Source: a virus. From it: 35,448 nt of DNA. The DNA is taken from the IMG/VR virus record IMGVR_UViG_3300025645_000209, positions 1 through 35,448 of that record, one strand, 5' to 3'. The notes beneath the pieces are model-generated. The model ran no database searches. It saw only the letters and a list, made by a program, of their open reading frames with translations, and had not been told where the DNA came from. Position 1 is the first letter of the stretch; each line of letters starts with the position of its first letter. Positions 2,323 to 29,675 of this stretch are shown here, piece after piece. Both the position numbers and the translations under genes were made by a program.

Positions 2323-2343
2323 AAAGTGACACCTTCTAAAGAA
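2323..2343 (+). promoter_or_regulatory. Candidate phage promoter, copy 1
   Basis: A 21-bp sequence (AAA followed by GTGACACCTTCTAAAGAA) that recurs identically at 8585 and 10385, always intergenic and on the + strand. Here it sits just after clpP, with a 108-nt leader before phoH. Its core CTTC-TAAA-GAAG is an inverted repeat. Length, strand bias and placement ahead of gene blocks fit a promoter for a single-subunit phage RNA polymerase such as the one at 13111. An operator or processing site is possible. The repeat is certain; the function is inferred. Confidence 0.65.
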
Positions 2344-8584: not shown

Positions 8585-8605
8585 AAAGTGACACCTTCTA
8601 AAGAA
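8585..8605 (+). promoter_or_regulatory. Candidate phage promoter, copy 2
   Basis: Identical to the 21-bp sequences at 2323 and 10385. It lies near the end of the noncoding region, about 250 nt before the CxxC gene and terL. Downstream similarity to copy 1 continues: both have AAGAAGAA, a C run, then TACATTAATG (8628-8637 here, 2364-2373 there) and TTAGGG. The shared leader suggests transcripts with a common 5' RNA element. Confidence 0.65.
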
Positions 8606-9051: not shown

Positions 9052-10380
9052 ATGGCTATTAACTTACATCCCGGACAATCCCGGATCATCAATGACATCT
9101 TTGTTGAACAAACAGTTCGATACGGTGTTGTTTGTGCTTCCCGAGGTTTCGGCAAATCATACCTAGCAGCGACAGCAGCTATTCTGGCCTGTCAAGAACT
9201 AATCAACATGCCAGCAGATGTACCGAACAAGAATGTAGCCATTATTGCCCCTACGTACCAACAGTGTGTCGACATCTACTTCCCTTTGATCGCCTACCAG
9301 TTAGGATTGGCAGATCACTGTGTAAAGATGAGTGCCCATAGTGGGACATTCTGGCTACCAAATAATGTCATACTGAAACTGTGGTCTTACGAGGCTTCTT
9401 CCCGAATGCGAGGTAGTGGCCAATATTTTGTTGTGTGCGATGAAACAACATCTTGGAGAGGCGCAGGTTCTACTGCTAAAGAGACTTGGGAATCGATTGT
9501 ACAGCCGTGTATCACCACCCGATGGTCAGAGCAGATGTCAGAGTTCCACGGAGCACCAAGCCCCGGAAGGGCACTGATAATCTCTACTCCGATGGGCATG
9601 GATTACTTTTATGAACAATTTAACTTCCAAGAAAGAGACCCTGATTGGAAAAGCTATCGATTCACCTACAGAGATAGTCCATACTTGGACCCTGTGGAGA
9701 TTGAGAAGACTAAGCATACCATTGATGCCCTTAAGTTCCAAAGAGAATACGAGGCGTCCTTCGAGGATTCTGGTAATACAGTCTTTTACAATTTTAACCG
9801 AACTACGAATGTTCAACCCTTGGATTACTTCGATGCCAAAGAAGATGTCCACGTTGCAATTGACTTTAACGTTGGTATCATGGCAAGCGTGGCCTTTGCT
9901 GTTAGAGGAGGGCAGATCCATGTCCTTGATGAGTTTCAAGGGCATCCGGATACTGAGACCTTGGCGAAGCATTTAGCTGAAAAGTATAAGGGCCATAAGA
10001 TCATTACTTATCCCGATCCGAGCGGTCGAGCGAGGAAAAGCTCAGCGGCGGTAGGCAGGACTGATTTTTCTATTTTGAAGTCGCACGGTTTAGCTACCCT
10101 AGCAAGATCACGAGCACCAGCAATAGCTGACTCAGTTCAAGCAGTAAACAGGATGCTTAAAACAGCTGATGACAAAGTTCATTTTTTCGTTGCGCCCAGT
10201 TGTGTGAACACGATTAAATCTATTGAGCGTACTTCTTGGAAAGAGAATAACCCAGAAGCCTTAATCATCGATAAAACAGAAGGAATCGAGCATTGGACAG
10301 ACGGTATCAGATATGCTGTTGAGTACTTATTCCCTGTGAGAAATCATGCTACAACTGTCAAAAGAGGCTTTTCTTTCTAA
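9052..10380 (+). CDS. terL: Terminase large subunit
   Basis: A 442-residue TerL with both activities visible. The ATPase has Walker A ASRGFGKS (29-36), Walker B YFVVCDE (D130, E131) and the coupling motif IISTPMG (176-182). The RNase H-like nuclease has Asp271 in AIDFN, Asp322 in YPDPSG and Asp417 in HWTDGIRY. It translocates DNA into the prohead through the portal and cuts concatemers. AGGAG precedes the ATG. The promoter-like copy 3 begins 4 nt after its stop. Length is normal for the family. Confidence 0.95.
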   Translation: MAINLHPGQSRIINDIFVEQTVRYGVVCASRGFGKSYLAATAAILACQELINMPADVPNKNVAIIAPTYQQCVDIYFPLIAYQLGLADHCVKMSAHSGTFWLPNNVILKLWSYEASSRMRGSGQYFVVCDETTSWRGAGSTAKETWESIVQPCITTRWSEQMSEFHGAPSPGRALIISTPMGMDYFYEQFNFQERDPDWKSYRFTYRDSPYLDPVEIEKTKHTIDALKFQREYEASFEDSGNTVFYNFNRTTNVQPLDYFDAKEDVHVAIDFNVGIMASVAFAVRGGQIHVLDEFQGHPDTETLAKHLAEKYKGHKIITYPDPSGRARKSSAAVGRTDFSILKSHGLATLARSRAPAIADSVQAVNRMLKTADDKVHFFVAPSCVNTIKSIERTSWKENNPEALIIDKTEGIEHWTDGIRYAVEYLFPVRNHATTVKRGFSF

Positions 10381-10384
10381 AATA

Positions 10385-10405
10385 AAAGTGACACCTTCTA
10401 AAGAA
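10385..10405 (+). promoter_or_regulatory. Candidate phage promoter, copy 3
   Basis: The third identical 21-bp copy, starting 4 nt after the terL stop and 35 nt before the next start. Downstream bases diverge from copies 1 and 2 (ACTACT instead of GAA), shortening the central inverted repeat. It is placed to drive the tRNA, portal, MuF-polymerase and head genes, so the polymerase may transcribe its own operon. Confidence 0.65.
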
Positions 10406-10846: not shown

Positions 10847-10915
10847 GGCGATGTAGCTTAATTTAAAGCAGACGACCGATAAACGTCAGATAGTGGTTTA
10901 AATCCATTTATCGCC
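10847..10915 (+). tRNA. Divergent tRNA or tRNA-like RNA, anticodon GAT (Ile)
   Basis: A full cloverleaf can be drawn. The acceptor pairs GGCGATG with TATCGCC (7 bp, one G-U), the D stem GCTT with AAGC, the T stem AGTGG with CCATT around loop TTTAAAT, and the variable loop has 4 nt. The anticodon loop CCGATAA would read GAT. Oddities: the 6-nt D loop lacks the G18G19 pair, position 56 is T not C, position 33 is C not T, the anticodon stem has an A-A mismatch next to the loop, and no CCA is encoded. It fills the gap between two small genes. A working but reduced tRNA, a decayed tRNA, or a processing signal are all possible. Confidence 0.6.
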
Positions 10916-10944
10916 CTCTAATACTTAATACAGGAGAACCAATT

Positions 10945-11094
10945 ATGAACGGAAAAGGTTCAAAACAACGCCCTACTGACCATAATCGGTTCGCCGAGGC
11001 ATACGATGCTATCTTTCGAAAGAAAGAAGCTGAAGAAAAATTAATCACTGAAGACCCTCAATCAGATAAGGTAGACGAAGATGATAGCAAATAG
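10945..11094 (+). CDS. Small conserved phage protein, 49 aa
   Basis: A 49-codon frame with AGGAGA before its ATG. It opens MNGKGSKQRP and continues with NRFAEAYDAIFRKK, a pattern I recognise from short uncharacterised proteins of T7-like and marine phages. The C-terminal half is acidic. It overlaps the portal start by 14 nt, suggesting coupled translation. Confidence 0.55.
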   Translation: MNGKGSKQRPTDHNRFAEAYDAIFRKKEAEEKLITEDPQSDKVDEDDSK

Positions 11095-12742
11095 CACCGG
11101 AAATCGTTCCAAATCAGTCGGCGACCCTAATGCTCGATATGAGTCTCTCAGGAAGCTGTGGCGCACTTCTCGCGCAATACTGAACGGTCAGAACCAAGCA
11201 AAAGAATTAGACAGCACAGTTAATGCGTCTCAGAATATTCTTCTGCCCTTCTCACCTTCAATGACTCAACAACAATACAACTTTTATAAAGCAGAAGCAG
11301 AGCTACCCGGATTAACCGCGCAATACGCCAAGGTCTTAACCTCCGGATTACTGCGTAAGCCTCCTGTAATGAACCTTCCAGCTGACGCCCCAGAAGGCGC
11401 AAAGGAATGGTTAACCCACCAATTTACTTCTGACAACCAGTCAATGCTGTCTTTCTTAGATGATGCTATCTGGGAAGAAATGCAAACAAGTAGAGCATGG
11501 GTGTACGTAGATTTCCCAACTGTCCCTGATATGGACATGCTCAGCGTGGAAGAACAAAAGCAACTCCGACCTTACCCTGTACTGCTGAATGCAGAATCGG
11601 TAATTAACTGGAAAACATCTGTTCATCCAATTACTAGAGACACTACTCTTACCCGATTAATCACTCGTTCTTATCAGAAGAGCTATGGTGAAAACGAATG
11701 GCATCCAGATTATGTTGATACTGTGTTTGATCACTTTATTGCTGCTGATGGTTACTTCTACATTAATGTGTACGAACGTAACAAAGATGGCGGCGGCGAA
11801 GATGTAAGCTTCATCAATGGTGTCGAACAACAAGAATACCAAACTCGTGGTGGTTCCCTAGGTGGTGCTGGCAGTACAGGTGAATGGGAATTCATTCGTA
11901 CTATTGATAACCTCCTTATTAATGACAAGCGGATGTCAGAAATCCCCGCCTACCCTTTGAACGGCTCTATTGACGGTGTTGAACCAATGCTTATGCCTTT
12001 GGTTGACCGTGAAGTCGCTCTATATAACAAGGTATCCCGTAGGAACCACTTGCTTCTCGGTTCTGCTACTTATACCCCTGTTATCTCATCTGACATGTCG
12101 GAAGATAGATTTGCGGATATTGTAGACGCTGGATTAGGTTCTTGGATTCGTATTGACCAAGGCGATTCCATCAACGTATTTGAAGCCCCTTCTAAGGCTC
12201 TTCGAGATATGGAAAACGCTATTAGCTCAACAATCTCTGAGATGTCCCGAATGGGTATTCGGATGTTAGCACCTGACAACGGCTCTGGTCGAGATTCTGG
12301 TGTAGCATTAGAAATAAGAAACGCTGGTCAAACAGCTATTATGGCGTCTCTGAACGCTAAGATTTCTCAACAAATGAGAAAGATTATCAGAGTTATGATG
12401 AATTGGCGCTATGATACAGACTATGATACCAACGACATTGAGTACACTTTGACTGCAGATTTGAATCCCGCTCCTATGGGTTCTGACTGGTTGCGCTTAG
12501 TTACTGAGTGGTATCAGCAAGGGATTATCCCCCGCTCTGCTTTTGTAGACATTGCTAAATCTAACGATATCCTACCTGTTGATTATAATGATGCGGATGG
12601 TATTGGCGAGATTAAGGAAGACGATTTAATCATTAACGCTGCAATGGAAATTGAGCTAGACAAAATGGAAGCTGCTGCTCTTGCAACAGTTAACGGCGAA
12701 ACCGATGAGTCGGAAGCCGACAAGGACAATCCGGAGGATTAA
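11081..12742 (+). CDS. Portal protein (DUF4055 type)
   Basis: A 553-residue protein with features of DUF4055 portals: YNFYKAEAELPGLTAQY (about 66-82), GLLRKPPVMNLP (about 88-99), a conserved middle with EIPAYPLNG, and a helical C-terminal part with NAGQTAIMASLNAKISQQM. Portals form the dodecameric vertex through which DNA passes. It is followed by MuF, scaffold and capsid genes, the standard order. The C terminus is acidic. The start overlaps the preceding gene and has only a weak ribosome site. Confidence 0.85.
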   Translation: MIANSTGNRSKSVGDPNARYESLRKLWRTSRAILNGQNQAKELDSTVNASQNILLPFSPSMTQQQYNFYKAEAELPGLTAQYAKVLTSGLLRKPPVMNLPADAPEGAKEWLTHQFTSDNQSMLSFLDDAIWEEMQTSRAWVYVDFPTVPDMDMLSVEEQKQLRPYPVLLNAESVINWKTSVHPITRDTTLTRLITRSYQKSYGENEWHPDYVDTVFDHFIAADGYFYINVYERNKDGGGEDVSFINGVEQQEYQTRGGSLGGAGSTGEWEFIRTIDNLLINDKRMSEIPAYPLNGSIDGVEPMLMPLVDREVALYNKVSRRNHLLLGSATYTPVISSDMSEDRFADIVDAGLGSWIRIDQGDSINVFEAPSKALRDMENAISSTISEMSRMGIRMLAPDNGSGRDSGVALEIRNAGQTAIMASLNAKISQQMRKIIRVMMNWRYDTDYDTNDIEYTLTADLNPAPMGSDWLRLVTEWYQQGIIPRSAFVDIAKSNDILPVDYNDADGIGEIKEDDLIINAAMEIELDKMEAAALATVNGETDESEADKDNPED

Positions 12743-13110: not shown

Positions 13111-16100
13111 ATGTCTTCAATCAATGATGACTTATATGACTTGTCGGTAGACCATGCCTCTATGGTGCGTGGCTTCGAGAACTCACTGCAAACTGATGTA
13201 AAAAGAATTATAGAAAGACATAAAAACCGGCTTAAGAGAGGGTTAGCGGCTGTTAAAAATGCGGGCTCTCGGTCAGCTCGGGCTGGTGTTTTAGAACCTG
13301 AGAATAAAAGATTCATTAAAGAAATGAAATCTTCTATGACTACTCAGCTAAATGATTTTGGTCTTGTAGAAACAGACTTTAACACTAACATGCTAAATAA
13401 AAAGCTTGGAAAGTTCGCTAACATTAAGCGCCCTAAAGCAAGCGCAACCCTTACCGCTATTGTGGGTTCTAATATACGCGGTGATAAAACCCTTAGCAAG
13501 TACATAACTAGTCTTGGCGATGATGAGTTGCTTAGGATTAATGGAGTGCTAAAGAAAGGGATTGCAGAAGGTGCTACTCAGAAGCAATTAATTCGTAGCG
13601 TGATTAACAAAACAAAATTAACAGAAGCGCAAGCAAGTGCATTAGTGCGAACGGGTATCACTCGTACTCAATCTGTTGCGCAACTAAACACATTCCGAGG
13701 TAACGAAGAACTATTAAAGGGTGTCAGGTTCACCGCAGTACTCGATGCTAAAACCTCTCCTATATGTTCCCACCATGACGGAATGGTGTATGCATTAGAC
13801 GATACTAGATTTACGCCGCCTCTCCATTGGAGATGCCGTTCGACTTTGATCCCTGTAGTTAAATCTCACAGTGAGCTTTTAGAGTCTAGTAGCAAAGATG
13901 TGAAAAAGAAAGTTCTTTCTAACATGAAAGGACAAGGGATTGCCCAGCTAAACGGAGCTTCCCCTAACAAAGAAAACTATGGTACTTGGCTTAAGCGTCA
14001 GTCTCAAGATGTAAAGCTCAGGCACCTAGATAATAATCCTGAGAAAGTATCAATGTTCAACAGTGGGCAAATAGCCTTCACCTCGTTTACAAATAGCGCA
14101 GGTCAGGGCGTAAGTCTGAGAGCTTTAAGGCGATTAGACAACAAAGCCACAGCTGTTGTGCCTACTAAACAAAAGGTATCTTCCGCAGTTACTAAGCAAG
14201 CAATAACTGCCTCTGCTTCCACCCCTAGGTCTTTGATTCGTAATTCTTCAAAAGAGAATGAGTTAAGAGAGCTATTTAAAGCTGATGCATCAGACATGGG
14301 TAACCCGTTGTCCCTAGTGGACTTCCGAGGTACTTCTATTGTCGGTAAGCAAACATCGCGCCGTAGAGCAAACAATCAGTTTGACGAGCGGAATACAGGT
14401 GTAGACCCTTTAACTGGTGAACAGAAATCTACTTTGGTTTATGATCCAGATTTTAATGTATTACAAGAAAGAATAGATTACCTTCAAAACTCTAAGACTC
14501 TTTCTCTAGATGAAAAGAACTTTATTCAAAGATTTGCTTTGTCTTTAGAGAACGATGGATTGTCTATCAATCAACAAACAGCGGTGATAGAGAACCTACG
14601 TATTAACTTTGAGCGATTCGCCAGAGATAAGAAGCCTTGGGAAAACTATGCAGCTGTAACAAGAGCAGAGATAGCTAACTCAGTAGTGAACACTTCTCGC
14701 ATCTTAGATAGAAGATCCCGATCTAGAGCTCAACAATTTCAATTTGGCGCAGGAAACGAATCTACGGTTCAGATACTAGGTGTTCACACCAAGTTTGATG
14801 ATATCGCGGCTCGAACTCTTGAGAACCAAAGAATTGTCAAGTCTTGGGCAGAAAGAGAAGGTGTTAGTCTTGCAAGGAAATCCCTGTCAACCGGCAGAGC
14901 CCCTATGAAGAACTACTTTCCTAGTGTACCCGCATTCTTACCTAAGCTTCCTAAAGTTCGTGATATTATCTATAAGCAAATAGAAAAGCTACCGGGTGGT
15001 AAAAAGCTAGCTCGCATACTACAAGGTAAGCCTAATGATTCCTTACTGTTTGAATTTCTCAGGAAAGGTAATGAGAAGATTAGAGAAATATTAGATCTTG
15101 AACTTCTTTATGCTAAGAAGAGAGATGTTTATACTAAGAGCAGTGCTACACCTAAGTTTATAAAGAAAAGAGAAAAAGAGCTATCTCAGATTATGAAATC
15201 AGTAGCTACTGGTAAGTCTACCGACTACGATACTCTTTCTATTAATATAGGTAAAAGACTGTATGAAAACAGTAAGAATGACTTTGATGTGTTCTTTCCT
15301 AAACCCAGCTTACAAGCTTTTCATAGAGCTGGCTCAAAGATCCTCGATGGATTGAAAGATCAAGGGAAAATTAAAGTATCACTAAGAGGCACTACAAGAC
15401 GAGGCGTATTAGACCTTGACAGTGGTCGCCCCGAGACTGGTTCTTTTAAAGACACTATTTCCCGTGAAGTAACAATAGTTGAACCTTCCATGCTTGCACT
15501 GCAAAGAGCTAGCAGAGAGCTTGTGTACTCAAGACGTATTGGTATTGTTAACCAGAGAGACCGACTTTATGTAAAGGCTGGTCAAAAAGAATATGTAGAT
15601 GCCCGTGGCAATTCTACAGGTGAGTCCGTTATCACCCGAAAAGCTGGTGCTAATTACGATACAGATTTAGTAGATAAAGATTTCTCTAATATGCTCAATC
15701 ATGCAATGGATGCTGAGTGGGAAGTAGATACTGACTTCGCTTCTTTCTTTGATGACCTATTACACTTCAGAGACCCTAGAGGTAATGTTGCTAAATACGA
15801 TGAACTTAACGGATTCCGTAAGATCATTTTAGGCCGTGGAGACCAAGGATCTGGTCTGATGCAAACAGTAAAATGGCATTTGCAAAGAGGGAAGTCATTT
15901 AGAAACCCTGTTCAAATTGATGGTCGAGGTCGAGTTTACACTACTGGTTATTTACACCCAGCAGGTGGTGAGCTGGTACGTCCATTTTTGAACACTACTC
16001 GAAAGGTCAACTTTGATGATGACATTCTTTTCGAGTTAATGACTCAACTTGGTGCAATGACAGGTGCATCACAAAGTGTATTAACTAATGCTGGAAGGAT

Positions 16101-17559
16101 AGCTTCCTTTCAGGCAAGAGAAAAGCAATTTAGAGAACTTGGCGAGCTTATGATGTCTAAGACTCAAAGGCCTAGAAGACTCCGTGAGTTTCTAGAACAC
16201 CCTTTGATGATAGCAACAGATGCTGATCATGTTCCCAAGGTTGCCCGATTCGCATTAGAGTACACGCGTGTATACAACCATGTCAACGGAGACTTCTCCA
16301 ATAAGAAATTACTTAGGACTTTTCAAAGTCAGCTAACTAGTGAAAACGATGCCTCGGCTTCTGGTGCTCAGTTAATTGCTCTTTCGACTAGGAATAAGAA
16401 ATTAGGTGAAGCTTCGAATGTTACCTACACTGACCAAAAGAACAGGCTGTATGATACGGTAGCAGAGGCTACTATGTCAGACCCTGAGTTTAGAAAGCTT
16501 GCAGTTGCTCAAGACTTATCATTTGATGATATGGCTAAGGCGGCAAAAGGGCAATCTATGGTTGCATTTTATGGTGCGGGAAGATCAACGCAGGGCGGCG
16601 CAATTGAAGCCAAGCTAGCTAAGATCCTAGACAAGAAGGAATACACTGTTCTTTCAAAATCCGAGATCTCTAACGTAAATAAGATTTTAGATTCAAAAAT
16701 AAAACTAGCGGTAGACTCAGACAGTATTGCTGTAGCTACTGCGTTAAGAGAGTTGAAGGGTGAGATAAAAGATATTGTAGACAATGGTGCCCCTATAGGG
16801 AACAAAATCATTACTCAAGCTCGGGACTCACACCCGGATGTAGAAGAATTTGTTAACAAGCTAACTAACGTTCGTCAAGGTCTAATTGGACCTAAACAGT
16901 TTCAAGAGATTGCAAGGATTATGAGTAAGCACTTGGCAGAAATCGCGCCAATTACTGAGCAATTTGTTGTATTCTGGAAAGACGTTGCAAAGATTTACAT
17001 CACTGAGTCAGGCAAGGTAGACATACCTTGGGTCACAGTAGATGGTAAACTCTTGTACCAAAGATACCGCCCGACTGTTCAAGAGCGGATTGAGTTTAGA
17101 GACCCTGTCACTGGCAGGAGGATAAGCAATATCTACGAAGACACAGTAACGGATGGTTCCTTGTTAGGCAAATCTTCTATCATTGATGCCCGGTCTGGTT
17201 TGGGTGTTAATGGTAACCACATGAATGACGCCACACTTGTGCGGCAGTTTCATCTGTGGGGTAGGAGGAATGGAATTCCTACCGGTACGATTCACGATGC
17301 GTTTTTCACTAATATTGGTGATAGCCTTCGTGCTAAAACCGCTCTAAGACAAATCTATGCTGATGCGGTTGAGGGTGATACAATGCTCAAAACCCTTGAA
17401 GCAATGCGGGACGCCGGATTGTCAGAAGCATCTTATAGAGCATTACTAAAGAGAGGAACCGAGGAGGGATTGTTAAATCCAAAAGACCCTCTTACCTCAA
17501 AAGATATATTAGAAAAGATACCAGCAGGTTCTGATTGGTACGGTAAACCTTTGCCGTAA
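13111..17559 (+). CDS. MuF head protein fused to T7-like RNA polymerase
   Basis: A 1482-residue fusion; GAGGAG precedes the ATG. Residues about 100-260 are a MuF/SPP1 gp7-type minor head domain, ending in the signature LDAKTSPIC (211-219) and PPLHWRCR (236-243). Residues about 800-1478 show T7-family single-subunit polymerase motifs in order. DGRGRVY (937-943) matches T7 DWRGRVY. Asp1080 in NDASASGAQ matches motif A Asp537. Lys1146 with Tyr1154-Gly1155 matches motif B Lys631 and Tyr639-Gly640. WVTVDGKLLYQRY (from 1307) and NHMNDATLVR match later T7 segments, and His1395-Asp1396 match motif C Asp812. The middle third is unassigned. A group I intron begins after codon 1478; the spliced product would end IGP. 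The expected role is a capsid-borne transcriptase. Confidence 0.85.
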   Translation: MSSINDDLYDLSVDHASMVRGFENSLQTDVKRIIERHKNRLKRGLAAVKNAGSRSARAGVLEPENKRFIKEMKSSMTTQLNDFGLVETDFNTNMLNKKLGKFANIKRPKASATLTAIVGSNIRGDKTLSKYITSLGDDELLRINGVLKKGIAEGATQKQLIRSVINKTKLTEAQASALVRTGITRTQSVAQLNTFRGNEELLKGVRFTAVLDAKTSPICSHHDGMVYALDDTRFTPPLHWRCRSTLIPVVKSHSELLESSSKDVKKKVLSNMKGQGIAQLNGASPNKENYGTWLKRQSQDVKLRHLDNNPEKVSMFNSGQIAFTSFTNSAGQGVSLRALRRLDNKATAVVPTKQKVSSAVTKQAITASASTPRSLIRNSSKENELRELFKADASDMGNPLSLVDFRGTSIVGKQTSRRRANNQFDERNTGVDPLTGEQKSTLVYDPDFNVLQERIDYLQNSKTLSLDEKNFIQRFALSLENDGLSINQQTAVIENLRINFERFARDKKPWENYAAVTRAEIANSVVNTSRILDRRSRSRAQQFQFGAGNESTVQILGVHTKFDDIAARTLENQRIVKSWAEREGVSLARKSLSTGRAPMKNYFPSVPAFLPKLPKVRDIIYKQIEKLPGGKKLARILQGKPNDSLLFEFLRKGNEKIREILDLELLYAKKRDVYTKSSATPKFIKKREKELSQIMKSVATGKSTDYDTLSINIGKRLYENSKNDFDVFFPKPSLQAFHRAGSKILDGLKDQGKIKVSLRGTTRRGVLDLDSGRPETGSFKDTISREVTIVEPSMLALQRASRELVYSRRIGIVNQRDRLYVKAGQKEYVDARGNSTGESVITRKAGANYDTDLVDKDFSNMLNHAMDAEWEVDTDFASFFDDLLHFRDPRGNVAKYDELNGFRKIILGRGDQGSGLMQTVKWHLQRGKSFRNPVQIDGRGRVYTTGYLHPAGGELVRPFLNTTRKVNFDDDILFELMTQLGAMTGASQSVLTNAGRIASFQAREKQFRELGELMMSKTQRPRRLREFLEHPLMIATDADHVPKVARFALEYTRVYNHVNGDFSNKKLLRTFQSQLTSENDASASGAQLIALSTRNKKLGEASNVTYTDQKNRLYDTVAEATMSDPEFRKLAVAQDLSFDDMAKAAKGQSMVAFYGAGRSTQGGAIEAKLAKILDKKEYTVLSKSEISNVNKILDSKIKLAVDSDSIAVATALRELKGEIKDIVDNGAPIGNKIITQARDSHPDVEEFVNKLTNVRQGLIGPKQFQEIARIMSKHLAEIAPITEQFVVFWKDVAKIYITESGKVDIPWVTVDGKLLYQRYRPTVQERIEFRDPVTGRRISNIYEDTVTDGSLLGKSSIIDARSGLGVNGNHMNDATLVRQFHLWGRRNGIPTGTIHDAFFTNIGDSLRAKTALRQIYADAVEGDTMLKTLEAMRDAGLSEASYRALLKRGTEEGLLNPKDPLTSKDILEKIPAGSDWYGKPLP

Positions 17560-17766
17560 TAAAATCTTGTGAATTCAGGGAAACTCCCACGTGGACAATC
17601 CTGAGCGAAGCCCGAAAGGGAACGTGCAACGACTATTCCGAAAGGAAGTACACTCAAGTGAGTGGAAGCGCAAGGCACCTTAATTGGTGAAGAGATAGTC
17701 TGAACTATGTGGCAACATATAGCAGCGAAAGCGGGCTAGGCCTAACGACCCTAGTTGAACATAATG
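17545..17766 (+). ncRNA. Group I intron (IA-like), 222 nt, no ORF
   Basis: P1 pairs exon TACGGT with internal guide GCCGTA (17553-17558), with the required U-G at the splice site after 17544. P3 is CTTGTG/CGCAAG (17566, 17669). P4 is TCAGG/CCTGA, P6 has a CCC-GAAA-GGG cap, and P7 is GACTA/TAGTC (17631, 17696). P7.1 has TTCC-GAAA-GGAA, P7.2 has CACTC/GAGTG, and P8 is CACC/GGTG. P9 follows, and the intron ends CATAATG with the terminal G at 17766. P10 pairs exon ATAGG with guide CCTTT directly beside P1 (4 of 5). The extra P7 hairpins suggest subgroup IA, as in phage T4 introns. Confidence 0.9.
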
Positions 17767-17778
17767 ATAGGACCTTAA
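17767..17778 (+). other. 3' exon of the MuF-polymerase gene
   Basis: After splicing, codon 1478 (Gly) is followed by ATA GGA CCT TAA, giving Ile-Gly-Pro-stop and a 1481-residue protein ending DWYGIGP. The reading frame joins exactly between codons. It is inferred from the intron fold and the P10 pairing. Confidence 0.75.
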
Positions 17779-17928: not shown

Positions 17929-18582
17929 ATGTCCGAAGAAAATAATATTGATAACCCAGAAGTAAAAGAAGCCCCTCAAGCCACATCTGAAGAGTTGACC
18001 CGTATGGTTCAAGCTCGTGTTGAAGAAGAACTAGCTCAAATTAAAGGCAAGCTTAACGATGCTTACGCATCTAGAGACGAAGCCGTTAAGAAAGCTGTTT
18101 TATTCGAAGAAGAAAAGAAGTCGGCTCAAATCGCTCGTCTAGAAGAAGAAGGTAAGCACAAAGAAGCAGGTGATATTCGCCTAGCTGAACTTATGGCTAA
18201 ACTAGAATCTCGTGACAAGCAAGTAACTGAACTTACTCGTGATAACGTCGTACGTGATGCACTAAAGAGTATGGATTTCCGTAATGACACTGCTGCTGAA
18301 TTCGCTTACCGCGATGTAGTTGCGCAGCTGGTTCAAGACGAAAATGGTCAGTGGGTTCACCGAACTGGTAGTCCAATTAAAGACTTTATCGATACATTTA
18401 AGAAGGACGAAGAGAAGTCATTTCTATTCAAAGCAAAACAATCATCAGGCGCAGGGCATCAAGTTTCTTCCGCACCTGCTGGTGGTTTTGATAAGAACAA
18501 ATCATTGTCAGAAATGTCAATGGAAGACATCCTCGCAGCCGCGGCTGCAGGCCACCTAGACGGTGGTAAAGAGTGGCGCTAA
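17929..18582 (+). CDS. Scaffolding protein
   Basis: A 217-residue, highly charged, mostly helical protein directly before the capsid gene. Residues about 20-110 form a long coiled coil (EELAQIKGKLNDAY, FEEEKKSAQIARLEEEGKH). The C terminus has a Ser/Gly-rich linker then a short helix with EDILAAAAAGHLDGG, a likely capsid-binding tail. Scaffolds guide prohead assembly and are then removed or cut. AGGAG precedes the ATG. The 150 nt before it carry a TGAGTC-TGT-GACTCA hairpin overlapping the ribosome-site region. Confidence 0.85.
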   Translation: MSEENNIDNPEVKEAPQATSEELTRMVQARVEEELAQIKGKLNDAYASRDEAVKKAVLFEEEKKSAQIARLEEEGKHKEAGDIRLAELMAKLESRDKQVTELTRDNVVRDALKSMDFRNDTAAEFAYRDVVAQLVQDENGQWVHRTGSPIKDFIDTFKKDEEKSFLFKAKQSSGAGHQVSSAPAGGFDKNKSLSEMSMEDILAAAAAGHLDGGKEWR

Positions 18583-18627: not shown

Positions 18628-19848
18628 ATGGCTATTTCATCTGATGGATTTGGTACACTAAACAAAGCTATTTCCGCTTACACTGACGAGTCTTACACTC
18701 GCGCTAAGAAACTCGTTTCTACTGCTATCATGGGCACTAACGCCTCTATCAACGCTAACGGCGAAGATTTCATTGGTCAAGTTCGTTTTTACAAGCCACT
18801 TGGCGCATATACTTCCACAAGCAATGCTACTGAATCAGAGTCTATCGCCGGAGGTATAGAAGGGGATGCACTGGTTACTGCTGTAAACGTTGCTTCTCAA
18901 AACGAGAACTACGGCGCTACCACTAACATCTCTACTGATGTTCAAACTTACATCAAGACTGTCCGCACCCACGGTGCTAATGAGTACTTGGTTCAAGAAG
19001 TAATTTCTAAGCAAGACGGCCTTGCTAAGATCGCTCGTGATTTCTCTGAAACTCGTGCTGAAGACGAAGATCAATCTGTCCGTTCTATTATCGCTGGTGT
19101 TCGTGGCGCTGAGCTCGGAATCGCTTCTGATGCTTCTCTTTTTGACGCTGACACTTCTAACTACCAAGACTTTTGGGCGGGCAACGCTGTAGACGCTGAT
19201 CCTTCTAAGGGTTTTGGCTACGTTGCGGTTAAGTCTTTGATTTCTAGCAAAATTGGCACAGGTGATAACATCGATACCTTGGTTGACAACACCACTGCTG
19301 GCTTGGCTCCGGGCCTTCGCGTACGTCACTTGATCAAAGCGATGGGCGCATGGGCTGATTACGTTCCTAGTTTTGTATACCTTGTTGTAGGCCCTGAAAC
19401 CTACCTAGATATTAAAGTAGCTAACATTGTAGATGACGAGCGTGTTACTGATGGTAACATTGCTTTTGAAACCATCTTAAGTGGTCAGGTCCGTTTGGTT
19501 GTTTCCCGTAGTTACTCAACTTCATTGAAAGTCACTAACATCAGCATTGCTGGCAATACTGAAGCAACTGGTATTAAAACCTCTTACATGATGCTCCCAG
19601 GTTCTATGTACATGGCTGACGTTTCTGTTCCTAACCCTGTTGCTATCGATCGCAACGAAAGTGTAGGTTCTGGTTCTGGCCGTACTACTGCTTGGTACCG
19701 TTGGGGTTATGTTATGCACCCACGCGGTTACACTTTTGTTGGTAACGATAGTGTTTTTGCTAGTAATGGAACTTTTGCTGCTGCTGCGTCTTGGAATCGT
19801 AAGTCTGATATCCTAAACTTGGGTATCCTTCCTATTTTTCACCGATAA
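18628..19848 (+). CDS. Major capsid protein
   Basis: A 406-residue protein in the capsid position after scaffold, with AAGGAG before the ATG. Codon use shifts toward frequent C-ending codons (AAC, TAC, CGT, GGT), as expected for the most abundant phage protein. Content is consistent with an HK97-like shell protein: a helical stretch around 105-160 (ANEYLVQEVISKQDGLAKIARDF...) and beta-rich C-terminal half (MMLPGSMYMADVSVPNPVAIDR). No delta domain or obvious cleavage site is seen. Confidence 0.85.
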   Translation: MAISSDGFGTLNKAISAYTDESYTRAKKLVSTAIMGTNASINANGEDFIGQVRFYKPLGAYTSTSNATESESIAGGIEGDALVTAVNVASQNENYGATTNISTDVQTYIKTVRTHGANEYLVQEVISKQDGLAKIARDFSETRAEDEDQSVRSIIAGVRGAELGIASDASLFDADTSNYQDFWAGNAVDADPSKGFGYVAVKSLISSKIGTGDNIDTLVDNTTAGLAPGLRVRHLIKAMGAWADYVPSFVYLVVGPETYLDIKVANIVDDERVTDGNIAFETILSGQVRLVVSRSYSTSLKVTNISIAGNTEATGIKTSYMMLPGSMYMADVSVPNPVAIDRNESVGSGSGRTTAWYRWGYVMHPRGYTFVGNDSVFASNGTFAAAASWNRKSDILNLGILPIFHR

Positions 19849-23783: not shown

Positions 23784-26700
23784 TTGGCTATAGAACTCCA
23801 GGTTCGGTCTGATTCCAGACAGGCGCAGGTAGATTTGCGCAAACTAGATAGGTCAGTTGAGAACATAAATAAGACTACGCAGAATGCCAGCAAAGCAATT
23901 AAAAGCTTAGCTATTGGCGCTGCTGCTGCACTTGCTGCTATTGGTAGTGCAAGAGCTGTAACTAACGTTACTGACTCCTATCGTAGACTAGAAGCGCGTA
24001 TCGCGTTGGCTACTGATGGTCTTAAAGCTCAACAAAAGGCTTTCAAAGAATTAAACGCTATTGCAATAGAAACTCGATCTAACCAAGAAGGCGTAGCTGA
24101 CCTTTACTCTCGTATTGCTCGTGCTACTAAGTCTCTCGGCATTGAACAAAAAGTTGTTATTGACGTTACACGGTCTATTTCTAAAGCTATTACAATCTCG
24201 GGCGCATCCGCTGAATCCGCTAACTCTGCTATTGTGCAGTTAGGTCAGGGTCTAGCAGCTGGTGCTCTACGTGGACAAGAATTAAACTCCGTAATGGAGC
24301 AGACCCCCGCTGTAGCACAAGCTATTGCTAAGGGTATGGGAATTACAATTGGCGAGTTAAGACAATTCGCTAACGAAGGAAAGCTAACCGCTGAAGCTGT
24401 TGTTAATGCCTTGAAAGATCAAGGTAAAGCTATTGATGAAGAATTCAACAAAGTTCCGCTAACCTTTGCACAGTCTTTAAGTGTGTTAGGAACAGGCGTA
24501 GGTAGGGTTGTTAACGAGATAGATCAGGTTGTTGGAGCAACAGAAGGCGTTAGTGAAGCTGCTAGAAACCTTGGTATTAACTTAAACAACTCAGCAGAAG
24601 GCATAGGTGCTAGTGTTCAAATACTTGCTGACAGATTCTCTTCATTTCTATCCGGAGTAAAAGACGTTGCTGGAGCTATTGGTGACTTAGGTAAAGCATT
24701 AGGCTCATTAGGCGTCGCTGTGTTTGAGCGATTGATACCTATAAGCTTTATTAACGCACTTAATTCCTTTTTAGGCAAGTTAAAAGAACTTGCTTTTTCA
24801 TTTAAGACCTTAGCCGCACCTTCTGAACGCTTAAGTTTCTTTATCTCTAAACTTGCTTTGTCTGTTGAAAACTTTGCAGCATCTATAGAGCTTGGACCTT
24901 TGCAACGCTTAGGTAGATATATGTCATTCGGGTTTACAGATTCAATCATTTCTGTAAGCATGGCATACAATTTCTTAGAGACTAAAACTACTGCTGCATT
25001 AAAAAGTATTGTAAGAACTACAAAGCTTGCAATGAGCAGTATTGCTAACGGCTTTATTGAAACCAGAGAAGTTTTGAATCACTTTGGAAATGAAATTACA
25101 TCTGCGTTCTCAGGTGTTGACACTAGCTCTTTCAAAGATTTAGTAAGAGAAGTAGTTGGCTTTGGCAAAGACTTATTATTAAAAGGCCTAAAGTCTGTAA
25201 TCAAATTTACAGATACAGTTAAAGCTCTTTTCTTTGATGTTTACGACAAAGTTGTAGGTAACTCCTACTGGCCTGATATGGTTGATGGTGTTAACAATTA
25301 TGCCAAGAAGCTGTCAAAAGGTGAAGGTATTGTTAAAAAGTTTGCTGATAGTGTTTCTTCTACTTTCGAATCACTTAGTAGTTACTCAATTATAGCAATA
25401 AAGCTTGTACTTGTTTATGTTAGCAGATTCTTATCGGTTCTATTCACATTATCTTCCGAATTAGCAAACATGGGATCATTGACCTTTGATGGTATTAAAG
25501 ACTCTCTTGTGCGATTAGGAAAGGATTTAGTTTCTGGATTTACAGTTATACAAGACAAGATAGGACAAGCGGTAGCTATTGGATTGTCACTTGGAATCAT
25601 AGCGTTCACCCTTGGATTGCCTGCTAAGGCATTCCTTATCGGAGCCGCCTTAACCGGTGGAATAGTTAAAACGTTTGACAAAGTATTAGGAACCCTTGGC
25701 ACTAGTTTCCAAGAAGTAGCATTTGAGGCAGGAAGAGCCGCTGGGTTATTCACAGCTGCTATCGTTGCTGAGATACCTGCTTTAATAAAAGCTATTGGCC
25801 AGATAGGTCGTGGTTTTATTGAAGGATTCTTAAACTCAATACCGTTAATCGGTGGGCTTCTTTCTGGCGTAGTTAAAACAGTAGACACCTTCGTAGGTGG
25901 ATTAGGTAGCCTAGCGGCTGGCGGTTTGTTAATCAGTTTATTCTTTGGATCCTCAAGAAGTGCTGCCGTTGCACTTATAACAGGCACAATAGGCAAGATA
26001 GTTACCTTTGCAGCAGTGAAACTAGCATCCTTAAGCTTTGTCAGTGAAAGCGCAGGTGCGGTCATTACCGGCCTTGTAGGCCCGGGTAAAGGCGCTGTAG
26101 CTATGGGGCTCTTAAAGTCTTATTTCGCAAACGTGATTGCTTTGATGGCTTCTTTCTACAGCACAGTAGCTGCAACATCTGTGGGCACTTCTGCCGCAGG
26201 TGGTTTAGCTTCTCTCATGCTGTACGGAAAGAGCGGAGCTGCTAGTATTTTAACTGGTCTGGCTTCGTTCGTGGCATTAGTAGGAACTACACTATCAGGT
26301 TTATTAGCAGCTCTCGCTAATAGTTCAGCAGGCAATTTCCTTGGTAGTTTGTTTTATGGCAAAGGATCCGCTACTGTAAATGCGCAAACTACTACAAGTA
26401 TTGGTCTTTCTGCTGCCCAGACTTTAACCTCTGGAATAAAAAGAAAGTTCGCAGGTATGGCTGGCCCGGGTGGTCTTCTCAGAAAGGCTCTATTCGGAGC
26501 TGGTGGTCTTGCATTGCTTTTAGGCTCAACCGGAGCTTTTGCTTCTGATGCAGCTGATGCTACCTCTTCACCATTCACTAGTCTTCCGGCTCTTGCAGTT
26601 GAAGGTGGTTTATTAGGCCTGGCAATGTTTGGTCCCGGCGGGATCAAGAAAGGTTTAGCTGCAATCGCTTCAGGTATAACCAAGGCTCTGTCTATGGTAA

Positions 26701-29675
26701 TGACAGGTTTGACTACTATACTGTTGCATCCTGTTTTCTTAACTATTGCTGCTATTGTAGCCGCTATATCTCTTGTAGGTCTACTAGGTCTTTACCTGTT
26801 TGGTGAAGGTAACTCTTTTGACAGACAGTTAGATAATGCACAAGCTAGAATCTTAGGGATTGTCGGTTTACTAGACAATGTGATAGACAGAGGCGACAGA
26901 CAAGACTTCACTAGTGGCCTTATCGGTGAACAGAATGTACCCGACAGTAGAGCTCGTGAAGGGCTAGGTAAGCAAGATGATAGTCTGCGTTCTACGTTTG
27001 ATGACTTATCTAGCAAGGGCTTTAGTGTTGATGCGCTTTCTGATAGTGACTTTAACAGTCTTGCGGTATCTATTGCAGATGGAGTTAGAATTCAAACTAG
27101 TTTGCTTGATGCTAATTTAATGTCTAACACTGATTTATCTACTATAGCTAAACTTGAAGCTGAAACCTTAGAACAAAACAAGGCTACCGTAAGCTTGTTA
27201 AGAGAGTTAGATGCTAGTATTCAAGAGCAAGGAGCTTCTTTTATAAAAGGCGATGAAGGCTCTAGAGACATTCTGAATCTTGAAGCTGGATTTATAGAAG
27301 CAATATTTTCATTCTCAGCAAGAGTCATTGATTCTATTGGTAACTTTGTTGTTAACTTGCCATCTTTGTTCGTTAGAGGTCTTCTTGTTATTAGCAAGGC
27401 TTTAACTATATTAGCTCAAGCAATTTATGTTTCTGTTATTGAACCTATTTTAAATTTCTTTGGTTCTATCTTTGAAGCCATAGGTAACCTTGTATCTTCT
27501 GTTATTACAATAACCGGTGCTGTTATCACTAGCGTGTTTGAAACTATTGTAGACTTCTTTTCTGGAATCGGAGAGTTCTTTGATGATCCTAAAAAGTATT
27601 TAAAAGACTTATTTACTTCTACAAAAGAAGTAGCTTCATCAGGTGCAGGAACTGCGGTTACTACAGCAACTGGTGTTAAAGACGCTTTTAAAGACGCAAT
27701 AACATCGGCTATTGATGCGGCTCCTACTCTGCTAGATCCTGCTCCTTTCAAACGAGCTCTAAACGTCGAAGGTTTCATTTCTAATCTAGCTGACTCTTTA
27801 AACGTAGGATTCGGTAATTTAGGGCGAGACATTTCTCAAGAGATTGATGTAGCGGCTAACAAGCTAAATCGTGTTACTACTGAGTTTAAGATTGAGTTAC
27901 CTGCTGAAACTACAAGAAGAATTGCTGAGTTACAAGCAGCTATCGAAAGCGGAGAGCTAGAAGGCGCTGCACTGGCTAAGGCTGGTGTAGATCTTCTTGC
28001 TGCTATTAACAAAGGGATAGTGACAGCTGTAGGCGTAGCATTGCCCGCAAGACTTTCTAAAGCTTTAACTAAGTTTGGATTTGAAATCTCTAAACTAGAT
28101 CTTCAGTTGTTAGGTACTGAAGGCATGGCTAACTACACTAACTTAATAGAAAACCTAGAACAAGCTCAAGACAACTTAGCAAAGGCTTCTACTGAAGATT
28201 TAAAAGCAAGAGCACAAGAACTAGTTGCAGCTCAACAAAAGCTGATCGCTGAGAGTATTGCTTTAGAGCAGAAAACCAGAGGAAAAGCAGGAGCTGTAGA
28301 AGGTTTAGGCGATGTTGGCTTAGATATTGATTTAGAGCAATTTAGCAAGTTCTCTAAGTTTGGACAAGCTGAACTTCTTAAACTAAGCGACAAAGCACTA
28401 GAGTTCACTAAAATCCTAGAAAACCCAGATAAGTTCTCTTTTGAAGAGTTAACTGCTGCTCAAGTAGGGCTTAACGGTATCACTCGTGAAGCAGAGCGTC
28501 TCAACGAAGTATTAGGTCGTGGTGAAAAGCTTGCTGAAGAGATTCGTGATTCTTTCCAAGAAACTGTAAAAGGCATATTTGAAGGCGCTAATGATATTGG
28601 CGACATCTTTGACAACATAGGCAAGAAGATCTTAGGTACTTTCCAAGACATCGCATCTCAAGGTATTACCGATATGATCTTCGGTAAGAAAGGAGAAGAA
28701 GGCGAATCCGGTGGTCTCGGTGGTTTCCTTGGTGGCTTACTTGGTGGAGATGATACAGCTAAGATGGCTCAAGATCCTAACGCTGCTAAACAAGGCGGCC
28801 TTGGTGGTATGATCGGCGGCGCTGTTGATAGTGTTAAAGGTCTCTTTGGGTTTGGAAAAGGCAAAGAAGGCGACGGCGGTACTCTTGGCGGTCTATTAGG
28901 CGGTGGAGAAGCACCTGACGGTACTGAAGCAAATCCTTTCTATGTCAAAATAGTATCCGATTTAATGGGTCTTGACAAAGAAGGTGGAAGTCCTCTTGAC
29001 GCTCTCAAAGACAAAGCGCTAGGAAAAGATGGCAAGGATGGCAAGAAAAAGGACGAAGTACTGCCTTTAGAAGGTCTTAAAGAGGTCAATTCTGGTTACT
29101 TAGAAAACATTAAAGGAATCTTTAACGGTGTCGAAGGTAGTTGGGGTGGTTTGTTTGATAACTTTGGTGATAGTCTTGGCGGCGTATTCTCTGGTCTTAC
29201 TGACTCTTTGAGCGGTATGTTCTCAGGCGGCGGTGGCGGTGGAATGGGCGGTTTGCTTTCTGCTGGCTTAGGGTTATTTGGTTTTGCTGATGGTGGTGCT
29301 GTTAAAGGTCCCGGCACAGGAACCAGTGATTCTATCATGGCTGCACTTTCTAATGGCGAATATGTCATTAATGCTAAATCTACTAAGAAGTATGGAGCTT
29401 TGCTCGCAGCTATTAACTCTGGCAACATGCCTAAGTTTGCGGAAGGCGGCATGGTAGGTGAATCTTTGCCTGTTATGAACTCTGATTTACAAGCTAATAC
29501 AATTAGCAAGGCTGGTAATGCTTCTAAAGGGCCTACTCAAATGAACAGCAGTGTTACCTTGCAAGTTACAGGTGATGTTACTGAAGCTACCCGTAAAGCA
29601 GTTCGAGACATGGGTAACGAAATCGCAAGTAACGTTCAATCACAATTCGCAGAGAGAGGAGTCTTAGGTGGCTAA
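23784..29675 (+). CDS. Tail tape measure protein
   Basis: A 1963-residue protein starting at TTG 23784 (GAGGAGTAAGG upstream). The N-terminal 220 residues match the tape-measure N-terminal domain (SYRRLEARIALATDG, RSNQEGVADLYSRIARA, GALRGQELNSVMEQTPAVAQAIA). The middle has hydrophobic segments near 595-630 and 975-1005 that could enter the host membrane during DNA injection. The C-terminal 350 residues are Gly-rich and include FADGGAVKGPGTGTSDSI, a common tape-measure ending. At about 0.15 nm per helical residue the tail would be near 290 nm. The unusual start codon may keep its copy number low. Confidence 0.93.
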   Translation: MAIELQVRSDSRQAQVDLRKLDRSVENINKTTQNASKAIKSLAIGAAAALAAIGSARAVTNVTDSYRRLEARIALATDGLKAQQKAFKELNAIAIETRSNQEGVADLYSRIARATKSLGIEQKVVIDVTRSISKAITISGASAESANSAIVQLGQGLAAGALRGQELNSVMEQTPAVAQAIAKGMGITIGELRQFANEGKLTAEAVVNALKDQGKAIDEEFNKVPLTFAQSLSVLGTGVGRVVNEIDQVVGATEGVSEAARNLGINLNNSAEGIGASVQILADRFSSFLSGVKDVAGAIGDLGKALGSLGVAVFERLIPISFINALNSFLGKLKELAFSFKTLAAPSERLSFFISKLALSVENFAASIELGPLQRLGRYMSFGFTDSIISVSMAYNFLETKTTAALKSIVRTTKLAMSSIANGFIETREVLNHFGNEITSAFSGVDTSSFKDLVREVVGFGKDLLLKGLKSVIKFTDTVKALFFDVYDKVVGNSYWPDMVDGVNNYAKKLSKGEGIVKKFADSVSSTFESLSSYSIIAIKLVLVYVSRFLSVLFTLSSELANMGSLTFDGIKDSLVRLGKDLVSGFTVIQDKIGQAVAIGLSLGIIAFTLGLPAKAFLIGAALTGGIVKTFDKVLGTLGTSFQEVAFEAGRAAGLFTAAIVAEIPALIKAIGQIGRGFIEGFLNSIPLIGGLLSGVVKTVDTFVGGLGSLAAGGLLISLFFGSSRSAAVALITGTIGKIVTFAAVKLASLSFVSESAGAVITGLVGPGKGAVAMGLLKSYFANVIALMASFYSTVAATSVGTSAAGGLASLMLYGKSGAASILTGLASFVALVGTTLSGLLAALANSSAGNFLGSLFYGKGSATVNAQTTTSIGLSAAQTLTSGIKRKFAGMAGPGGLLRKALFGAGGLALLLGSTGAFASDAADATSSPFTSLPALAVEGGLLGLAMFGPGGIKKGLAAIASGITKALSMVMTGLTTILLHPVFLTIAAIVAAISLVGLLGLYLFGEGNSFDRQLDNAQARILGIVGLLDNVIDRGDRQDFTSGLIGEQNVPDSRAREGLGKQDDSLRSTFDDLSSKGFSVDALSDSDFNSLAVSIADGVRIQTSLLDANLMSNTDLSTIAKLEAETLEQNKATVSLLRELDASIQEQGASFIKGDEGSRDILNLEAGFIEAIFSFSARVIDSIGNFVVNLPSLFVRGLLVISKALTILAQAIYVSVIEPILNFFGSIFEAIGNLVSSVITITGAVITSVFETIVDFFSGIGEFFDDPKKYLKDLFTSTKEVASSGAGTAVTTATGVKDAFKDAITSAIDAAPTLLDPAPFKRALNVEGFISNLADSLNVGFGNLGRDISQEIDVAANKLNRVTTEFKIELPAETTRRIAELQAAIESGELEGAALAKAGVDLLAAINKGIVTAVGVALPARLSKALTKFGFEISKLDLQLLGTEGMANYTNLIENLEQAQDNLAKASTEDLKARAQELVAAQQKLIAESIALEQKTRGKAGAVEGLGDVGLDIDLEQFSKFSKFGQAELLKLSDKALEFTKILENPDKFSFEELTAAQVGLNGITREAERLNEVLGRGEKLAEEIRDSFQETVKGIFEGANDIGDIFDNIGKKILGTFQDIASQGITDMIFGKKGEEGESGGLGGFLGGLLGGDDTAKMAQDPNAAKQGGLGGMIGGAVDSVKGLFGFGKGKEGDGGTLGGLLGGGEAPDGTEANPFYVKIVSDLMGLDKEGGSPLDALKDKALGKDGKDGKKKDEVLPLEGLKEVNSGYLENIKGIFNGVEGSWGGLFDNFGDSLGGVFSGLTDSLSGMFSGGGGGGMGGLLSAGLGLFGFADGGAVKGPGTGTSDSIMAALSNGEYVINAKSTKKYGALLAAINSGNMPKFAEGGMVGESLPVMNSDLQANTISKAGNASKGPTQMNSSVTLQVTGDVTEATRKAVRDMGNEIASNVQSQFAERGVLGG

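Follow-up and report, generated by a model that had tools for sequence, protein, structure and literature searches.

We describe here a viral gene in which a MuF minor head domain and a T7-family single-subunit RNA polymerase (RNAP) are joined in one reading frame. The gene, hereafter MuF-RNAP, lies on the plus strand of IMG/VR virus record IMGVR_UViG_3300025645_000209, whose full 35,448 nucleotides were analysed (the window), and had been listed at positions 13111–17559 with a product of 1482 amino acids. The fusion, first put forward by a model that read the sequence without database searches (the original prediction), is confirmed by the agreement of Pfam, PHROG, fold, and conservation. We further propose, as a fairly likely reading, that the product is a virion-carried RNAP that is docked through MuF at the portal, is ejected with the DNA, and transcribes pre-early genes from a sequence designated motif E.

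Domains, catalytic motifs, and predicted fold

Matches to both halves were obtained within the single frame. PF04233 (Phage_Mu_F) covers residues 143–247 (E = 2.7e-13; 51.1 bits against a curated cut-off of 29.6), and the protein also matches PHROG 241 (head morphogenesis; E = 2e-52). On the polymerase side, PF00940 (RNA_pol) aligns with residues 1069–1429 at a score just above the cut-off (23.1 vs. 22 bits), PHROG 414 (RNA polymerase) matches with E = 2e-23, and a family hidden Markov model picks up T7 RNAP (E = 8.5e-7), with Asp1080 and Asp1396 falling on the T7 catalytic positions. All residues named in the original prediction, in the MuF signature (211–243) as well as in the catalytic motifs (residues 937–943, Asp1080, Lys1146/Tyr1154-Gly1155, and His1395-Asp1396), were found at the stated positions. 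The Lys-to-Tyr spacing of motif B, which had been likened to that of T7, is indeed 8, as it is between K631 and Y639, which we take to be the T7 RNAP counterparts.

Residues 380–1478 were modelled with AlphaFold2 (AF2) from 45 sequences, giving a mean predicted local distance difference test (pLDDT) score of 84 and a predicted template modelling score of 0.76. The top PDB matches of this model in Foldseek are mitochondrial and T7 RNAPs (E = 5e-19 to 3e-15), and alignment with VIA-align gave Z = 31.2 against T7 RNAP (517 residues, 3.6 Å, T7 residues 264–881), 27.6 against yeast mitochondrial RNAP, and 17.6 against N4 virion RNAP. Since the alignment reaches T7 residue 881, the conserved YG(IGP) end corresponds to the C-terminal foot of T7 RNAP. 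The model thus supports a right-hand T7-type polymerase fold, and the palm, on which the earlier claim depended, is present in it. A polymerase origin resembling that of N4 or P23-45 was considered and rejected, the fold match favouring T7 as judged by the Z difference alone. In BFVD, an AF2 model of residues 1–420 (pLDDT 80) clearly matches minor capsid proteins and head morphogenesis proteins of viruses, and its comparison with the PDB returned no significant match.

Distribution and conservation

The original prediction knew of no named system with this architecture, but named phages do encode it. Using tblastn, full-length relatives among GenBank phages were found only in DSS3_VP1 and DSS3_PM1 (45% identity) and in EBPR siphovirus 1 (31%), and the polymerase part alone, used as query, gave the same three phages as the only strong GenBank matches. 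A human faecal phage contig (MT836968.1, 3158–3637) shows a weak match to the polymerase domain (E = 8e-5) and is possibly a distant relative. The GenBank annotation of the three named relatives presents the fusion as a head protein only. A literature search, which did not extend to the DSS3_VP1 paper (Rihtman et al., 2021), found no account of a MuF-RNAP fusion, and the EBPR phage paper makes no mention of RNA polymerase.

The database search for co-occurring MuF and RNAP domains suggested in the original prediction shows that the fusion extends well beyond the window. Scans of IMG/VR recovered 15 near relatives and 49 EBPR-type contigs, and tblastn with the fusion as query found at least 571 contigs that encode relatives; the best 80 of these were retained, and the remainder stand as tblastn relatives whose two halves were not checked one by one. 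Among the fetched sequences, frames long enough to be judged carry DxRxR[VIL]Y, DAS[AS]SGAQ, KxxxM[VT]xxYG, and HD[AGS]F, with few exceptions, mostly frames cut by contig ends or introns. Even clades whose proteins are no more than about 31% identical have these catalytic motifs essentially unchanged. In a comparison with a near full-length relative, the ratio of nonsynonymous to synonymous substitution rates (dN/dS) came to 0.055 for the RNAP part and 0.08 for the MuF part, which shows that the fusion is under purifying selection. Full-length relatives, hundreds of IMG/VR contigs, preserved motifs, and the low dN/dS together argue that the frame is not a chance one; the hundreds of homologues rule out both a chance frame and an assembly artefact. 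A collection of bacterial genomes covering 84,980 species yielded matches to the MuF domain only and no fusion, which is consistent with lytic phages.

Group I introns in the MuF-RNAP gene

The 3′ end of the gene differs from that originally listed. The Rfam covariance model RF00028 matches positions 17535–17722 with 79.9 bits (gathering score 50), identifying a group I intron in the window. As read from the sequence, P1 is formed by ACGGU/GCCGU, with a U·G pair at the 5′ splice site after Gly1478 (17544); the 3′ splice site follows G17766, and the second exon, ATA GGA CCT TAA, supplies Ile-Gly-Pro and a stop codon. Intronless relatives end in DWYGIGP at the same point, and the listed stop (17557–17559) together with the KPLP terminus is intron sequence. 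The spliced protein is accordingly predicted to have 1481 residues ending in YGIGP, and the gene to end at 17778 instead of 17559. The frame first proposed therefore stands with respect to the fusion but not to its 3′ end, which the intron moves, and a single-exon gene ending at 17559 is ruled out by the discovery of the intron, which sits 12 bases before the end of the gene.

The genes of relatives are also interrupted, at highly conserved codons in both halves: between C242 and R243 in the MuF signature, at residue 776, just before R957, in motif B (about 1147–1151), within H1370S|N, and directly after the catalytic Asp1396, in addition to the Gly1478 site of the window. At every site except 242, the group I intron model matches in at least one relative. 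The MuF-RNAP genes of the EBPR clade (contigs L148, L146, L140, L111, L116, L117, L143, L107, and L101) form a hot spot for such introns, with about seven distinct sites, mostly at catalytic or invariant codons; five interruptions occur in the single gene of L148 (8423–17063), and motif B of both L148 and L117 contains two adjacent intron models. Three further contigs carry in-frame insertions of about 140–150 residues just before motif A (L122, 12363–12781; L136, 12919–13328; L145, 12898–13349), which by eye are of two unrelated kinds and gave no significant Pfam match.

Group I introns favour conserved sites, so their positions lend independent, indirect support to a functional active site. 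This bears on a reading in which the RNAP half is an inactive relic that serves as a head or ejection protein, as a PF00940 score barely over the cut-off might suggest. We regard such a relic as very improbable, because both catalytic Asp residues, the Lys, Tyr, and Gly residues, and the DxRxR motif have been kept over deep divergence, dN/dS is low in this half, introns occupy catalytic codons, and the modelled T7 fold is complete as far as the C-terminal foot.

A second RNAP and its probable promoters

A panel of 20 records that hold MuF-RNAP loci was searched for further polymerases, and a second, canonical T7-like RNAP gene was found in all 11 of those longer than 60 kb (best E = 4e-87); in DSS3_VP1 it is gp080 (PHROG 414, E = 3e-132). 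The window stops short of the place where this gene would be expected. In G003, G005, G006, G007, and G010, the second RNAP gene is itself in pieces, probably through introns.

In DSS3_VP1, the motif ATAGGKKRCG[TC]TAAAG, which resembles promoters of the SP6 type, occurs in about 15 copies on the coding strand within the blocks for replication, packaging, and head formation, many of them between genes, and directly precedes phoH and portal. The region from 29.4 to 45.9 kb, which holds the second RNAP gene, has just one weaker site (38533). The window contains three exact copies of its own version, AAAGTGACACCTTCTAAAGA (motif N), where 0.01 would be expected by chance. Motif N is phage-specific, other genomes having their own versions before middle and late genes, and we infer from this pattern that it would be read by the second RNAP.

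Motif E at the early genes

Motif E, AAAAA[GC]TGAGAAAA-n5-GCATCTATAATGA, was first seen in gaps after the tail genes. A matrix scan of eight roseophage-type genomes and large contigs found 2–4 strong sites per genome, 21 in all, with scores of 34–54, while the next-best scores anywhere in these genomes are about 14. Every one of the 21 is on the coding strand, in the interval bounded by the genes for MuF-RNAP and the second RNAP; the DSS3_VP1 genome has motif E at 35785 and 36232. Because the matrix was built from 17 sites taken partly from the same genomes, the informative part of this result is where strong sites do not occur. The exact pattern TGAGAAAn6GCATCTATAAT is present in 95 IMG/VR stretches, against a rough chance estimate of one to a few for an assumed collection size. 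MuF-RNAP was found on 20 of the 40 motif E contigs tested (many are fragments), and all 16 long ones that were tested have an RNAP match, either to MuF-RNAP or to the second RNAP. An inverted repeat, TGATAC-n-GTATCA, with a changing stem sequence, stands right after many copies of motif E (L155, L157, L043, and L038) and could form a hairpin.

In the EBPR clade, the counterpart of motif E is GTATCTTATATGAA, in which TATAAT is not kept. In six genomes, this counterpart precedes the second RNAP gene and shares its strand, directly in G004 and G007 and, if the contigs are circular, across their ends in G003, G008, G009, and G010; the reversed pattern has no match in any record.

On balance, we lean towards motif E being the promoter of MuF-RNAP. 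The perfect TATAAT of the roseophage clade and the location of the MuF-RNAP gene in the late block, which means that new protein appears late, would also suit an arrangement in which host RNAP reads motif E for early transcription and MuF-RNAP is an ordinary phage polymerase on a head protein that works late, for example on packaged or replicating DNA. We consider this unlikely. The motif E matrix has no TTGACA-like hexamer at the usual spacing and no TGn extended -10; 198 genomes from a single Rhodobacteraceae family contain no motif E, even with one mismatch allowed; and the EBPR clade keeps the place of the motif but not TATAAT. In addition, the pattern of motif N suggests that the second RNAP already serves the middle and late genes, and MuF would direct the fusion to the procapsid. 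A generic sigma-70 promoter scan of the DSS3_VP1 early block returned 9 hits, with 10.1 expected, and is uninformative.

Proposed role of MuF-RNAP

In the sequence of events that we propose, the MuF domain would bind the portal and place one or a few copies of the protein inside the procapsid. The polymerase would then exit the head along with the DNA, pass down the siphovirus tail, and transcribe the pre-early genes from motif E (in the EBPR clade, from the diverged form of that motif). Among the products of these genes would be the second RNAP. Starting from motif N promoters, this enzyme would in turn transcribe the middle and late genes, that of MuF-RNAP among them. The packaging and ejection of the protein, its enzymatic activity, and the assignment of each enzyme to its motif are deductions throughout: packaging into the virion seems highly probable, and delivery with the DNA followed by pre-early transcription is likely. 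These steps are proposed because the arrangement parallels that of P23-45 and because SPP1 gp7 and MuF fusions offer precedents. SPP1 gp7, a MuF protein, binds the portal strongly, is brought by it into the procapsid in few copies, and helps infection to start, and only about 25% of virions that lack it are infectious (PMC6316719; PMC5576092). Three observations strengthen the idea of an injected capsid polymerase: the gene order, the presence in relatives of a second RNAP gene of non-virion type, and a motif specific to the early block. Since the window is a 35-kb fragment without the second RNAP and motif E, those parts of the explanation rest on relatives.

Several points weigh against this proposal. 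A protein of about 165 kDa must get through a narrow siphovirus tail, and SPP1 gp7 is described in the accessible text as dispensable, with ejection not demonstrated there (PMC6316719). Motif E is not in the window fragment; in G003, G006, G007, G008, and G009, the EBPR-type motif has additional copies beyond the early block; and its 14-base core is unmatched in G005, G011, G016, and EBPR siphovirus 1. With its TATAAT, the roseophage-clade motif could also be recognised by host RNAP, either alone or aided by a phage factor.

Transcription is used by T7 and N4 for genome entry. By this precedent, the main task of a virion polymerase might be DNA uptake: anchored at the membrane or the tail exit, it would draw the genome into the cell as it transcribes, and early expression would be a by-product. 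Coupling of translocation to transcription has been proposed for P23-45 by its authors (PMC10770324). The DSS3_VP1 and DSS3_PM1 records, however, are rotated relative to each other, so that no fixed DNA end can be recognised next to motif E, and we judge DNA pulling to be improbable as the main function.

Returning to pre-early transcription by MuF-RNAP, a broader generalization seems to us slightly favoured: that a large unrecognised group of siphophages, to which both the EBPR clade and the marine roseophages belong, uses a MuF-docked, head-carried T7-type polymerase to start infection, independently of the solution found by N4, that motif E diverged together with this polymerase, and that transcription is handed over to the second RNAP, so that host RNAP need not be used early.

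Comparison with known systems

The closest named relatives are DSS3_VP1 and DSS3_PM1 of the Naomviridae (KNU84_gp108 and DSS3PM1_00060), which have the same architecture from end to end (45% identity, with 100% of the protein aligned), the same position of the fusion between the portal and capsid genes, and, in their genomes, the second RNAP (gp080). Full-length identity and the common portal-MuF-capsid order mark the window as carrying a structural module orthologous to that of the DSS3_VP1 group. These homologues differ in that their annotation names no function beyond head morphogenesis or minor head protein-like and in that they lack the C-terminal intron; they come from phages that carry dU-DNA, whereas the window is known from sequence alone. 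A strict link of the fusion to dU-DNA is unlikely because the fusion occurs on many contigs from ordinary metagenomes. The fusion of EBPR siphovirus 1 (gp47/gp49, JF412302; 31% identity) is split in motif B by an HNH-bearing group I intron and is annotated, in a partial record, as a head protein, an HNH endonuclease, and a hypothetical protein.

N4 likewise has a T7-superfamily polymerase in its virion (gp50), followed by a second phage RNAP, but that protein has about 3500 residues, belongs to a podovirus, and to our knowledge has no MuF. The protein studied here has 1481 residues with a MuF domain, matches PHROG 2166 only with E = 0.003, and is nearer to T7 (Z = 31) than to N4 in its model, unlike the Schitoviridae gp50 type. 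In P23-45, the virion RNAP fused to the tape measure (gp96) transcribes pre-early genes, including that of the second RNAP, and its AT-rich motif differs from the one used by the second RNAP (PMC10770324). The likeness thus extends to a structural virion protein fused to RNAP, a second non-virion RNAP, and two motif classes (PMC10770324); the differences are that the P23-45 enzyme is a two-barrel RNAP on the tape measure, whereas a T7-family right-hand polymerase is carried here by the head MuF protein. The tape measure protein of the window was searched and gave no RNAP match.

MuF domains fused to many effectors have been described and proposed to be delivered to the cell (PMC5512222). Such MuF-effector and MuF-toxin polyvalent proteins resemble MuF-RNAP in bearing C-terminal enzymatic cargo thought to reach the cell, but the accessible text of both sources describes ART, RelA/SpoT, 2H, PBECR, and nuclease-type domains, with no polymerase among them (PMC5512222, PMC5576092). 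The wealth of effector enzymes on MuF would allow a polymerase that disturbs host nucleic acids or makes signalling RNA instead of phage mRNA; given promoter-like motifs at the phage early genes and the constant co-occurrence with a second phage RNAP in long records, we find this extremely improbable.

MuF carrying a T7-type RNAP may be seen as a variation on the known virion-RNAP strategy, with a head protein as the carrier. Virion-carried RNA polymerases have so far come from only a few phage groups, and MuF is present in 57% of the 931 siphophages of one survey (PMC5576092). If the proposal is correct, hundreds of environmental phage contigs would encode this common head protein as the carrier of a T7-type polymerase, and its fusions, beyond toxins, may deliver working enzymes of the infection cycle. 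It would also offer a possible explanation of how transcription starts in the dU-DNA phages of the DSS3_VP1 group, and would make available for biochemical work a small virion RNAP of about 920 residues together with its proposed promoter; isolated phages with the fusion exist in DSS3_VP1 and DSS3_PM1.

Gene neighbourhood in the window

The order portal, MuF-RNAP, scaffold, and capsid is common to the window and DSS3_VP1, and the fusion gene has the position usual for MuF, beside portal and before the scaffold and capsid genes (Table 1). The tape measure and tail genes downstream of the head genes identify the phage as a siphovirus.

Table 1. Coordinates of MuF-RNAP and other features in the window
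Feature	Position	Strand	Basis or note
MuF-RNAP gene exon 1, residues 1–1478	13111..17544	+	ORF; full-length homologues
ORF-less group I intron within MuF-RNAP gene	17545..17766	+	RF00028; P1 pairing; intronless relatives
MuF-RNAP gene exon 2, IGP and stop	17767..17778	+	restores conserved YGIGP C-terminus of relatives
MuF domain, residues 143–247, with LDAKTSPIC...PPLHWRCRS	13537..13851	+	PF04233; AF2 model of residues 1–420
T7-family RNA polymerase domain, about residues 561–1478, including N-terminal part	14791..17544	+	AF2 model; T7 RNAP Z 31.2
DGRGRVY motif, residues 937–943	15919..15939	+	aligned to T7 DWRGRVY; kept as DxRxR[VIL]Y
Motif A, DASASGAQ, catalytic Asp1080	16348..16371	+	aligned to T7 DGSCSGIQ; invariant between clades
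Motif B, KGQSMVAFYG, Lys1146...Tyr1154-Gly1155	16546..16575	+	conservation in relatives; group I intron insertion site in relatives
Motif C, His1395-Asp1396	17293..17298	+	aligned to T7 HD; invariant between clades
Motif N copy 1, AAAGTGACACCTTCTAAAGA, upstream of phoH	2323..2342	+	probable promoter of non-virion RNAP
Motif N copy 2, upstream of terminase module	8585..8604	+	exact copy of AAAGTGACACCTTCTAAAGA
Motif N copy 3, between terminase and portal	10385..10404	+	exact copy of AAAGTGACACCTTCTAAAGA
Terminase large subunit	9052..10380	+	PHROG 2, E 9e-33
Portal protein, upstream neighbour of fusion	11081..12742	+	PHROG 145, E 3e-47
Scaffold protein, downstream neighbour of fusion	17929..18582	+	PHROG 206, E 8e-10
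Major head protein	18628..19848	+	PHROG 247, E 1e-20
Tail tape measure protein	23784..29675	+	PF20155, E 9e-59; PHROGs

A tRNA is indicated upstream of the portal gene at 10847–10916 (Rfam, 51 bits; no ARAGORN call), and DSS3_VP1 has a tRNA-Asn between its portal and MuF-RNAP genes. The contig end of the window (34857–35400) holds an array of 9/18-base repeats in 35 overlapping copies.

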